A stretch of 64,000 nt of DNA, taken from positions 1,364,001 to 1,428,000 of the forward strand of contig JAINUG010000033.1 in NCBI GenBank assembly GCA_029706075.1, written 5' to 3'. A program made the position numbers and the translations under genes. Below the pieces are notes generated by a model that was given only the letters and a program-made list of their open reading frames with translations, ran no database searches and was not told the origin of the DNA. The DNA is from Aldrovandia affinis. Its lineage: Eukaryota > Chordata > Actinopteri > Notacanthiformes > Halosauridae. Positions 3,530-63,819 of this stretch are shown here, in pieces (the first letter of the stretch is position 1; every line of letters starts with the position of its first letter).

Positions 3530-3676
3530 TCAAGCACTTAATAAATAAAGATTTAATTGTTTATTTCTGTATGGAGGATATTCAAGTTGAAAGCTGGTAT
3601 GTGAGCTGTACTTTTCTCTGTTGAAGATGATAAAATCCCTTTGAACGTTCTCCAGGCGCTGCTGCAGTTGGCCAGC
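3530..3676 (-). CDS. stk32a: stk32 coding exon 11 (FIIFNREK block) with possible read-through tail
   Basis: After acceptor TGCTGCAG the frame reads [20 protein letters not shown] and then EK, matching human [12 protein letters not shown] near the STK32 C-terminus; that conserved part is 3611-3676. Beyond it the frame stays open for 26 codons ([20 protein letters not shown] and on) to a TGA at 3532-3530. That would give 394 residues, close to the human length, but I see no homology in the tail. Alternatively, GTACAG at 3612-3607 is a weak donor to an exon I could not identify. A deleted Tc1-like element begins 28 bases past the stop. Confidence 0.8.
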   Translation of the reverse strand, partial: AGQLQQRLENVQRDFIIFNREKYSSHTSFQLEYPPYRNKQLNLYLLSA

Positions 3677-6600
3677 CTGCAGCATGAAAAGATATTAGAA
3701 AACATACATATGGCGTTAATGCTTTTACCACACTAAAGAACCCTGAGAGGGAAGAGAGGGTTAAAAAACAAAAGCAGGCCAGTTTTAAAGGAACATGCAA
3801 TATGACACGCAGCAAAAATAAGATCCGTCAAAAGAGGCAGAGACTTGCCCAGCTTGCAAACGTCAATATAATTTTTAAAGCTAGTTACACACTATACAAT
3901 TTTTTTAATTGAGAGGTGACACTACATTTCACATTACACGGTGCGGCACAAGTTGTTGCGGAGGGGTGGTAGCGGGAGAGGCTTTAAAACAGCAGGATTC
4001 ACTCATGATCACAGCCCCTGGGACACATCACAGCAGATAAACCTTCTACAAAATGACAACCACAGAAGAAGCCATCAATATGCGCTAAAGTACTTGGAAC
4101 AGAGGAAGACAAGTGTGTGTATGTGCGTGTCCTGGGTCTTGCAGGCCCAGAAACACTGCCTTGCAGCGCTCTGGCAGAGCCAATGAACACAGTCCCATCT
4201 GGCCCCCCTGACAGTGACAGCCCTTTGCATGGCCTCCTCCGGAATCTATTATCCCCCCCTACCGGACTGGGGTGTCAACTAGACAGCGGGGGTGACACAG
4301 CTGCCCTCACTGCAGGGCACCTGGCACTGGCAGATGCCCAGAAGAAAGAGGAAGAGATGTACTCCCGGAGAGCCGCCCACACGCTGACAAGAACAATACT
4401 ATAGGCTGGGCAAAAAAAAAAAAAAAAAGCTTGATTACAGGAAGTGTATTTTCAGGCATGACATCATATATTATTGCTTGTTAATTGTCTCTCTTTGAAA
4501 GGCTTTTCAGCAGTTTGACTTTGCAGGCGTTGGATTTATGGAACGGTCTCTTTGTTTAGCTACTCCTCCTGAGAAGATAAAGATCTCTGGTCTGGCGGTA
4601 ATATAGTATGTTTAGGGAACTGGGCTTTCAGAGGTTGCAAGTTCGTTTCAAAGCTGGGGCACTGTCAATGTATCCAAGGGCAGGTTTAGTCATGTCAGGA
4701 TTGAGGCCCCAATCAAGCATGTACACGTTAAAAAGGTCGTTAACTTTGACAAACTATCTTCAAGCTTTTTAAAAGATTTCTTCTTTTTCTGTCTTTGAAC
4801 CCCACTAGGGTAATTTCATGGCTCCTATTGTAGAAATATGTCTGCTCGAATGTGTCATGTGTAAGGGCATGTGTTTTTCACCACCTCTCAAGAAGCTGCA
4901 GTTATTTTCTGATCCTAAAGGCATGGCTGTAGGCATTCTATTTTCAGTAATTAGTGTCAATTACTCAAATAAACATGACCAGTTATAGAATTAAGTGCCA
5001 ATCTGGTGCAAGTCTACAAATTGACATTATTTCAAGAGGGGAGTTTCAATTAATCTAAACATGGAAAATACAACACCTTTTTTATTTGTATTTATTTTAA
5101 CACTAGGCTACAGCACCAGGTATTTACGCCTCTGTGGCAAAACATGAAAGAGGAAACGACAAATTATCAATGATTAAATTCAACACCAAAATATAAAATA
5201 TCGTGCTCCCTTTTTTGTTCTTTATATTTTTATTTTTGCCTGTCAAAAAAAATGTTTTCATTTTGCTTTCAAATGTTTTTACAAGTTTGTGCGGTTTAAA
5301 AATATCCACCCACTCATTACAACATATCAGCTTCTTTGCTCCAAGACGGGCATTATATGTCCTACAGAAGTGTCAATAGTCATATTTTCACGATTGAAAA
5401 TAGTAGCCTACTTACAAATCAATCGGTATGATTACGCGCGGGTGTGTGCAGCGCCAACACGCAAGTTATGCCAGACGAAATTGGACCGCTGTGCACCTCT
5501 ACAAGAATGTTAAATTTGAACACTCTGCGAATGAACCTCAGAGGTCCCGCCAAATAACAAACCATTCTGCCTTCAGTGATTCACTGGGCACTCTGCTGAG
5601 TGTGAATTTAAACAGGTGAGTGGAGAGAGTTTGGAAAATGGCCTTTAATGGATGCTGAAAGCAGCCCAGCCACAGCGGGGATTCCAGGGCAGGGACAGCC
5701 AAAGATGCGTCCCCCCACCGTCAGTGACTTAATTCCACCGTTCATTAGGGTTTTAAAACCCCACGCAAAGTTCTCTGTGAAGCCCAGCACAACCCAGAGC
5801 ATGGGGCCGGTGGCAGCCAGACACCAAGGCAGTGCCGCTCATACAATATTGATCACTCTGCTTTAGAAGTAGGGCACGTAGTACACACCGTCCCTTACCC
5901 GCAAGGCACGGGCTTCCCGCAGCTCCAGAAGTAGCTCCACAAGTCTGCCTGCCACGCTCCATCAACTGGGCTTGTTTTCATGAATTATTCTGTGCAAATC
6001 CTGCTAATCGACTTCGGGAATTGAACCGATCTGTCACATATGGATGGTATGGAGCGCTCATCCAAAGCAATTCATTGTTGGGCCTTTCTATTTTTTTCCC
6101 TCTTATGAATATGATTTTGAAAGACAGTTTGGCTAAAATGCCTTGTTCTAGGCACAGCAGTGCAATACCTCCCCCAAGACCACAACTCAAACACAAAGCT
6201 ACCAAATACACAAAGCTACCTGAATGGTAGGTATACAGTTTATGGACAATCTCATACCTTATATCTGTGTGGATACAGAATGCAGGGTAAGTAGGAAATG
6301 AAAAGACAATATTGCACAAACAGCAAAACAGCACACTTACTCTATAAGAATAAGCAAAATAAAACAAGAAAGCTGCATAACAGCCTTGTGCTAGAGGCCA
6401 TGTTTTTGCTGAATAAAGGCAGTGGAGCTTGAATTCGGACACATAATTCTTGTTTTATTGTTTGCGATGCAGCATAATAATAAAATGGGAAAATGTCTTA
6501 ATTTAGCCTACCCTGCTATATTTTGACAAAGGAAGTTATAGCATGCATCAGCCAAATTCAACTTCAGACTCAAGACTTCAGTAGAAAGAAAGCGAGTTGC

Positions 6601-61900: not shown

Positions 61901-63819
61901 ACGACGTGCGGTACACCCACAGCCAATCGGGCTTGCTCATTAATAGGCCCCTGCCGTGCAGCGCGCGCGGTCAGTACGTCAGAGCCGATGACAACAACAA
62001 AGCATCAATCTGTCAGTCCCGATGCTCAGTTTGCTGAAACGATGCATTGGTGGGGTGGGGGAGCTTGTCTCGTTGCATATGCGTGACTTTCTCTGTTTAT
62101 TCAGATGTTTCCCCACAAGGCCCTCAGATGCAGGACCCCACTAGGGTGTTTAGTCTGAGTCAAATATGCAGGTCACTATGTGACAGAACATTCAGATAGA
62201 ACATTCTCTCTCTCTCTCTCTCTCTCTCCCGACATCTATTTTCTTACAGATAATATAATGAGTAATCTGAGGCCTGGTGTAATGACCTTGGTCTTGTCTT
62301 ACAGTATTGCCATTTGGAGAAGACACAAACATTTCTCACACTTGTAGAGCTCGGTCTGTGAGACAGAGTAGAATGTCCGGTCTCCTGTTATGTCTTACCC
62401 ACTGATTTACTTTCCCTGTTTTGATAATAATTATTCAAGGAGGAGAGGACATGAACAACAGGCCATCTGTAATTATGTTTTTAGCCACTGCATTTTTGCT
62501 AATCTCACGGTTTCTATAAATATGCTTTGCTGTAGTGTTAGTTGAGGTTCCTCCTCTGCTGCCGGGGTGTGGAGTTTTCTTTCCTTTGTGCTTTTAAAAT
62601 GTGGTTAAGCAAGATGTTAATTAGATGCTTGTGTTTTGCAAGAGGGTTTTTAGAGGGTTTTCAGTTTTGATTTAGGTGGGGTTGTGCCTATGGGGCCCAC
62701 TCGCAGAGAAAGGAGATAGATTATCACAGCTGGGTGGCAAATATGTTTTTATCCAAAAGAAGCAATTCATTTTCCAATTTTTACTTAAAAAACAAAAACC
62801 AAGGTCATTTTGCGTTTCGACACAGGCCTACCTCTTTCCATTAATACTGTATGCCCATGCTCATATGTTATGGTCTTGTGCAGTGATTGCTGGGTTTAAA
62901 TGCCATTGACTCTTTCCATGGTTTATTGTAGCTGAGAAAACAGAAGTGATCTTTGAAACAGGGTGGTTTTCACAACTGTAATTTCCTCTTGAACACCCCC
63001 CAACAAACCACAAACAGGGCCCCGCCTTCAGGGCCTGCCATGCATTGCACAATGAAGTTCCTGAGATATAGTGCTCTATACAAGTCCCCACACACACAAA
63101 CATGGCCTAAGTTTCCTGTCAACACACCAAGGCCCATTAGCCGGAATGTTGTGTTTTGGACTATTTTCACTTAAGTGTGCCATGTCTTGACCTAACAGCC
63201 ACTCAACACTGGAGTATAGTCCTTCACGTGACCGTACAAACTGTACTAAAACTGCGTCAGCTGTGACTAAGCGGTGCAAACAGAAACATAACTCATTTCC
63301 AGAGGCACATTGCCTGTGATCGCTGAGCTTGTGACAGGAAAACAAAAGCGGCAGTTAACCCAACACAAGGCCTTTTCCACAGACTCTGCTTGGTACAGAA
63401 TCTCACTTTAGGCTGATATGGTGCAGTGCTACCTTTCTTCGTCTCCCCTGTAGGTGTCCAAAAACATTTGGCTAATGCGCCACAAGGGTTGAAGGAAGGG
63501 CCGTGGTATGAGCAATGAATCAGAGCACGCTGGTACAGACTGTTAACTATTTCCATTACGTGATTTCATACTTTTCATGGTCTACAGAAGTTACTTTTGA
63601 TCCCAGTATGAAAAGGTAACAAGCTTCACTTATTGTCAAATTCTTGTCTTTCAGGCTAAAAACAAAGAAACGGGGATTCTGGCTGCTGCCAAGGTGATTG
63701 AGACCAAGACCGAAGAGGAGCTGGAAGACTACATGGTGGAGATTGACATCCTAGCATCGTGTAATCACCATTACATCGTTAAGCTGCTGGATGCCTTCTA
63801 CTATGACAACAAGCTTTGG
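55831..63819 (+). CDS. stk10: STK10/SLK-family (germinal centre-like) kinase, 5' part, runs off the window
   Basis: Ste20-type kinase that in mammals (STK10/LOK and SLK) phosphorylates ERM proteins at the cell cortex. Two exons give the first 108 residues: P-loop [13 protein letters not shown] at about 41-53, catalytic Lys at 66 in AAAKVIE, and the helix C region [11 protein letters not shown]. The N-terminus [15 protein letters not shown] matches human STK10 (MAFANFRRILRLSTF). Other segments ([20 protein letters not shown]) are more like SLK. STK10 is favoured from the N-terminus and AKNKETG, but a separate fish member of the pair is possible. The rest of the kinase domain and the long coiled-coil tail lie beyond 64000. 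Confidence 0.88.
61644..61810 (+). repeat. interspersed repeat family B, copy 2
   Basis: CAGGAGTCCGGGGGCTATCA then AGAGACTGCCTGTCAGATAC, ACAGCAACGCTACAGAG, GTGACTACATAATA and ATATGATTTACCTG: matches 31144-31281 in order and orientation. Preceded by GA-rich sequence (61585-61645). Confidence 0.75.
62204..62229 (+). repeat. (CT)n microsatellite
   Basis: About 13 CT units in intron 1 of the STK10-like gene. Confidence 0.95.
63655..63819 (+). CDS. stk10: STK10-like coding exon 2
   Basis: 55 codons, [20 protein letters not shown] to [13 protein letters not shown]. Acceptor CTTTCAG, donor GTAAGC. Includes the ATP-binding Lys and the conserved EEELEDY segment. Phase 0 at both ends. Confidence 0.95.

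Follow-up and report, generated by a model that had tools for sequence, protein, structure and literature searches.

CYTL1, a secreted protein whose biology is poorly understood, has been linked to cartilage and to immune cells, and its human gene maps to 4p15-p16 (PMC6697716). CYTL genes occur throughout the gnathostomes and are reported from jawed vertebrates only (PMC10792014). We describe here a cytl1 gene of the halosaurid fish Aldrovandia affinis, which lies between an STK32 gene and an STK10-like kinase gene in a stretch of 64,000 nucleotides (the window; contig C1834:1364001-1428000) from an assembly of 1.22 Gb. In human, CYTL1 sits at 4p16, head to head with STK32B and near MSX1 and EVC2-EVC-CRMP1. 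The fish locus resembles this arrangement in encoding a family protein with six cysteines, and both cytl1 genes stand head to head with an STK32 gene. In contrast, the fish partner is STK32A, the outer neighbours are of human-5q type, and the two proteins share only a third of their residues. On the basis of this position, we consider it probable that fish cytl1 is not the orthologue of human CYTL1 but its ohnologue from the two rounds of whole-genome duplication (2R), a case of hidden paralogy produced by reciprocal loss.

The chromosomal setting has been described before. Human chromosomes 4, 5 and 10 share a 2R paralogon that includes STK32, DPYS and other families (Lagman 2016; PMC4906994). 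Within it, 2R gave rise to three STK32 genes, of which STK32B was apparently lost in teleosts and kept in gar and coelacanth. This PDE6/NPY-receptor paralogon matches the fish block in its JAKMIP, DPYS/CRMP and STK32 families, in the 2R expansion of STK32 and in the apparent teleost loss of STK32B, but the eleven neighbouring families named in that paper do not include CYTL1, and neither stk10 nor slk is mentioned in its text (PMC4906994). Human 5q31.3-q33.1 holds DPYSL3, JAKMIP2 and STK32A together (PMC3038855), and in coho salmon four genes that flank cytl1 here (stk10, dpysl3, sh3pxd2b and stk32a) are found together on chromosome 28, within about 0.52 Mb at 6.89-7.41 Mb (PMC8102513). Because these four genes are linked in coho salmon, the A. 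affinis assembly is not alone in carrying most of the block, which is common to at least two fishes. The genes flanking the window recur at human 5q32 (JAKMIP2, DPYSL3, STK32A) and at 5q35, which we take to hold STK10 and SH3PXD2B; these two halves presumably lie far apart in human, without CYTL1 between them. We also take UBTD2 to lie near STK10 in human, whereas no UBTD2 match was found at E 0.01 in the 264 kb formed by the fish window and 100 kb on either side. The paralogon, the history of STK32 and the genes themselves were already known. The point concerning a CYTL1 ohnologue seems new with respect to the open-access literature searched, in which we came across no work dealing with ohnologues or synteny of CYTL1; most subscription journals fall outside that literature, and this result is not proof of absence.

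The cytl1 gene is complete, with four exons on the plus strand at 52726-54087 whose consensus splice sites are all of phase 0 and which together form one open frame of 132 amino acids. The protein matches Pfam PF15153 (CYTL1) over residues 7-128 with 100.8 bits against a cut-off of 27 (E 7.4e-29). Its identity to human CYTL1 is 33%, and the six cysteines C24, C51, C66, C86, C110 and C121 are invariant between the two proteins. The N-terminus, ALLLLSCAVLTLC, is hydrophobic by eye. We read cytl1 as an intact, presumably active gene for a six-cysteine protein that is predicted to be secreted. It is an ordinary member of the CYTL1 family, and its interest lies in its probable paralogy.

The order of genes on C1834, a contig of 7.16 Mb that carries the whole block, is JAKMIP(+) DPYSL3(+) STK32A(-) cytl1(+) STK10(+) SH3PXD2B(-). 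The flanks were searched by tblastn at E 0.01 across the 264 kb with 13 human proteins or pieces of proteins. The human STK32A sequence used was compared by eye with the alignment to PDB 4fr4. The DPYSL gene was typed by PDB comparison, in which DPYSL3 (989 bits) scores above DPYSL2 (901), CRMP1 (860) and DPYSL4 (824). STK32A adjoins this gene and a JAKMIP gene that was matched by a JAKMIP2 query and is presumed to be that paralogue. In a maximum-likelihood tree of five rows, the STK32 kinase groups with STK32A with support of 94/94, as the first-pass annotation had anticipated, and its pairing with STK32C is clearly rejected (p-AU, the P value of the approximately unbiased test, 8.5e-5). On the other side of cytl1, the kinase domain of the STK10-like gene scores 574.6 bits against STK10 and 552.4 against SLK, and the outermost gene favours SH3PXD2B over SH3PXD2A by a small margin (589 versus 560 bits). 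Because of the typing of DPYSL3, STK10 and SH3PXD2B and of the STK32A tree, the block around cytl1 is of human-5q type. Eight of the 13 queries (UBTD2, FBXW11, MSX, TLX3, DUSP1, CPEB4, STX18 and PPP2R2B) had no match at E 0.01 in the 264 kb. Elsewhere, at position 3,565,920, C1834 carries an MSX gene, which we have taken for MSX2.

The first-pass annotation had also entertained a block of 4p type. That candidate is ruled out by the DPYSL3 bit scores, by the STK32 tree, and by the finding that the neighbours of cytl1 are of 5q rather than 4p type, the 4p markers being located on another contig, C791. There, EVC2 (C791:15149-49239) and a DPYSL-family gene (C791:83227-91109) occupy the same strand, as EVC2 and CRMP1 presumably do on human 4p. 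We read C791 as the 4p-type block and its DPYSL-family gene as a candidate CRMP1. The 10q-type block is present as well, in the form of STK32C with an MSX gene on C1112 and of SLK with an SH3PXD2 gene on C2156. The STK32 search, in which 116 of 488 candidates were scored, recognised STK32 in two places, the window and C1112. The latter gene is STK32C, given that all 30 of 30 residues of its exon 6 are as in STK32C (70% to STK32B and 57% to STK32A), and no CYTL1 was found beside it in 8 kb of C1112.

A second cytl1 was sought genome-wide with two kinds of query. The cytl1 protein matched nine places, four of which are the window gene (5e-29) and five of which have E values of 0.27 or worse. The PF15153 profile at E <=10 matched ten places, of which two are the window gene and the other eight are single weak matches that we have taken for chance; at the default threshold it matched no place, with the window gene itself going undetected. 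We conclude that there is a single detectable cytl1 in the genome, and that it occupies the 5q position.

The most economical reading of these observations is the following history. Before 2R, the block probably had the order JAKMIP - DPYSL - STK32 - CYTL1 - STK10/SLK - SH3PXD2, in which CYTL1 would have stood head to head with STK32. Duplication in 2R would then have copied the block, CYTL1 included, into at least a 4p-type and a 5q-type member. Tetrapods would have retained CYTL1 beside STK32B on 4p and lost the copy beside STK32A, and teleosts would have lost STK32B together with its CYTL1 and retained the copy beside STK32A. The matching head-to-head placement by STK32 in human and in fish makes an independent insertion unlikely. 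Furthermore, since the single detectable cytl1 is in the 5q position, a switch of copies between lineages is likelier than an extra gene. The earlier proposal that this cytl1 is an ohnologue unknown in mammals is therefore favoured by the 5q block, but needs to be recast as a copy switch rather than as an additional gene. We infer this history of duplication and loss, and its extension to teleosts at large.

Several observations weigh against this history. First, the printed gene table for coho salmon has no cytl1 (PMC8102513). Second, the CYTL tree is described as mainly following the species tree, with very simple dynamics of the gene complement (PMC10792014). However, reciprocal loss between teleosts and tetrapods would yield much the same shape of CYTL tree, which softens this objection. 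Third, the synteny markers proposed beforehand gave a divided result: DPYSL (as DPYSL3) and MSX are on the contig, the latter 2.1 Mb off, whereas UBTD2 and FBXW11 have no match in the 264 kb. Fourth, the raw identity of the STK32 kinase is slightly higher to human STK32B (217/299) than to human STK32A (213/297; 299 columns), and in the five-row tree its pairing with STK32B is rejected only marginally (p-AU 0.044). With raw identity about equal, the STK32A assignment is decided by the tree and by the neighbours, and the initial impression that exon 3 and the C-lobe are STK32A-like holds only in part. Fifth, exon 2 of the window STK10, taken alone, is nearer to SLK (99.8 versus 71.2 bits), as are exons 1-2 together (73 versus 69 identical of 86 residues). 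Sixth, C791 ends 15 kb past the last EVC2 exon matched by Pfam, and this break presumably falls on the side where the human order places STK32B and CYTL1. Because the contig ends there, the absence of STK32B and of a 4p cytl1 from that locus is not directly seen; the 15 kb end itself gave only chance-level matches to CYTL1 and STK32 queries. By eye, this end shows coiled-coil frames, which may belong to EVC2. Seventh, no STK32B was recognised among the scored candidates of the STK32-family search, no search having been aimed at STK32B, and the profile search for cytl1 is weak, detecting two of the four window exons at E 0.03 and 0.54. Finally, with identity of 33% to human CYTL1, a CYTL1 tree may not resolve, and the favoured history is a positional argument.

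The main rival is a transfer, in which the fish gene would be the true 4p-type orthologue, moved into the 5q block by a block exchange or a small translocation upon the loss of STK32B. In favour of this, the CYTL family tree is described as following that of the species (PMC10792014). The detection of a single cytl1 in the genome would also agree with a transfer, as would the failure to find STK32B, since remodelling of the 4p locus may have taken place. The move, however, would have had to arrive at the same spot and in the same orientation by an STK32 paralogue, between STK32A and STK10, and to leave the order of the neighbours undisturbed. No trace of a move was seen, no search having been designed for one, and we regard a transfer as unlikely.

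Perhaps both copies are present instead, with the 4p cytl1 (and possibly STK32B) missing at the broken end of C791 or too divergent to be recognised. The nearness of that break to EVC2 leaves room for this, and so do a profile search that barely detects the known cytl1 and the lack of a search aimed at STK32B. Against it, no STK32B exon was recognised among the 116 of 488 candidates scored, teleosts appear to be without STK32B (PMC4906994), and the protein query that detects the window gene at 5e-29 found nothing elsewhere better than E 0.27. The retention of two copies thus seems improbable to us.

Alternatively, CYTL1 could have originated in the 5q-type block later than 2R, with a move to 4p in the tetrapod lineage. 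We know of no pre-2R CYTL1 copy, which counts in favour of such a late origin. The report of CYTL only from jawed vertebrates (PMC10792014) points the same way. Nevertheless, an insertion at the matching spot by STK32B would be needed, and no sign of movement was seen, such that we give this origin very little credence. That the linkage is an assembly error is largely refuted, with nothing found in its favour, no N in the 264 kb, and four flanking genes linked in coho salmon (PMC8102513).

The STK32 gene, the CYTL1-like gene and the STK10-like kinase gene, which had been reported side by side, are confirmed as real by their exons and by Pfam and PDB matches (Table 1). The span given for them in the first-pass annotation, 3530-63819, holds except that it leaves out the last STK32 exon, 2584-2467. 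Exons 2-12 of STK32 (11 exons) run on the minus strand from 37157 down to 2467, and the translation of exons 2-11 (350 residues) aligns in its entirety to PDB 4fr4 (STK32A) with E 9.1e-169. Exon 12, for which tblastn by itself gives a weak match (E 3.4), carries EDGQNNNI close to its end, a motif that we take to resemble the human STK32A tail. Neither a motif scan of the window nor tblastn at E 0.01 across the 264 kb recovered coding exon 1, and the only tblastn match to the STK32 N-terminus was exon 2, already known; exon 1 may be divergent, too short for this threshold, or outside the searched region. The intron that follows exon 9 is of the GC-AG type and starts with gcaagt. Another intron-borne feature of STK32A is a pair of UnaL2 LINE (long interspersed nuclear element) 3' elements (Rfam RF00436; 30919-30971 and 31362-31415) that flank a GA repeat of 136 bases.

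The STK10 gene extends to the right of the window as far as C1834:1455996. Summed over exons, STK10 scores above SLK in both the kinase part (554 versus 507 bits) and the C-terminal part (580 versus 450), and a tree of STK10 and SLK on the 86 residues of exons 1-2 did not resolve. By these scores, the window kinase is assigned as a plain STK10. A third member of the STK10/SLK family, which had been raised as an alternative for this gene, is ruled out by the higher STK10 scores of both the kinase domain and the summed exons. A divergent third kinase of the family does exist elsewhere (C136:2962639-2965482), besides STK10 and two SLK genes on C2156 and C857. It shares 50 to 56 of 86 residues with human STK10, human SLK and the three other fish copies, and it is possibly the lost 4p-type STK10/SLK member.

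Copies of SH3PXD2 are found on C1834, C2156 and C2244, the one on C2156 being about 109 kb from SLK. Both of the 10q-type genes, SLK and SH3PXD2, appear to be present in duplicate. Among the matches listed, there are four MSX genes (C1834, C1112, C1967 and C1934). Likewise, among at least 100 homeobox matches listed, bunches resembling Hox clusters are evident on C14, C1774, C1869, C2022, C2078, C2111, C2355 and perhaps C2544. The bunched homeobox matches and the doubled SLK and SH3PXD2 genes suggest a teleost in which many clusters were kept.

Table 1. Features of the cytl1 block. Positions are those of the window unless prefixed with the contig.
Feature	Position	Strand	Basis
JAKMIP	C1834:1291802-1311831	+	human protein query, 264 kb
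DPYSL3	C1834:1342292-1358517	+	human protein query; typed by PDB comparison
STK32A exon 12, C-terminal tail ...EDGQNNNIGPVAYTSR and stop	2467..2584	-	weak tblastn (E 3.4), splice sites
STK32A exon 11 (FIIFNREK)	3612..3676	-	end 3612 placed by donor gtacag
STK32A exon 10	8283..8411	-	tblastn, splice sites
STK32A exon 9, followed by GC donor (gcaagt; donor side 9245)	9245..9370	-	splice sites
STK32A exon 8	10014..10130	-	tblastn, splice sites
STK32A exon 7	10776..10879	-	tblastn, splice sites
STK32A exon 6	11650..11739	-	tblastn, splice sites
STK32A exon 5	14355..14392	-	tblastn, splice sites
STK32A exon 4	24769..24942	-	tblastn, splice sites
STK32A exon 3	36006..36157	-	tblastn, splice sites
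STK32A exon 2, first exon found	37102..37157	-	tblastn, splice sites
cytl1 exon 1: hydrophobic leader, TCY, EIT	52726..52869	+	splice sites; Pfam PF15153
cytl1 exon 2 (ERCTAHLSDLYIDVH)	52990..53034	+	splice sites
cytl1 exon 3 (NACIMPRM...YRCHG)	53281..53427	+	splice sites
cytl1 exon 4 (ELHFSTDDCAALEH...) and stop	54025..54087	+	splice sites
STK10 exon 1, beginning 1,744 bases past the cytl1 stop	55831..55989	+	tblastn, PDB comparison
STK10 exon 2	63655..63819	+	tblastn, PDB comparison
STK10	C1834:1419831-1455996	+	human protein query
SH3PXD2B	C1834:1463077-1515287	-	human protein query

For teleosts as a class, we lean slightly toward the view that their cytl1 and tetrapod CYTL1 are 2R ohnologues, which would make the teleost gene a second member of the family that mammals have lost. 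In a family-wide analysis, CYTL1 is handled as a simple gene in all jawed vertebrates (PMC10792014). If the ohnologue reading is true, both CYTL1 genes would be expected to persist in some early-branching fish or shark, and the way in which the family spread from 2R onward could be followed directly in gar, bichir, coelacanth and sharks. Furthermore, zebrafish or medaka cytl1 mutants would not serve as models for the human orthologue and, should the reading hold for teleosts as a class, all comparisons of fish and human CYTL1 that have been treated as orthology would be instances of hidden paralogy.

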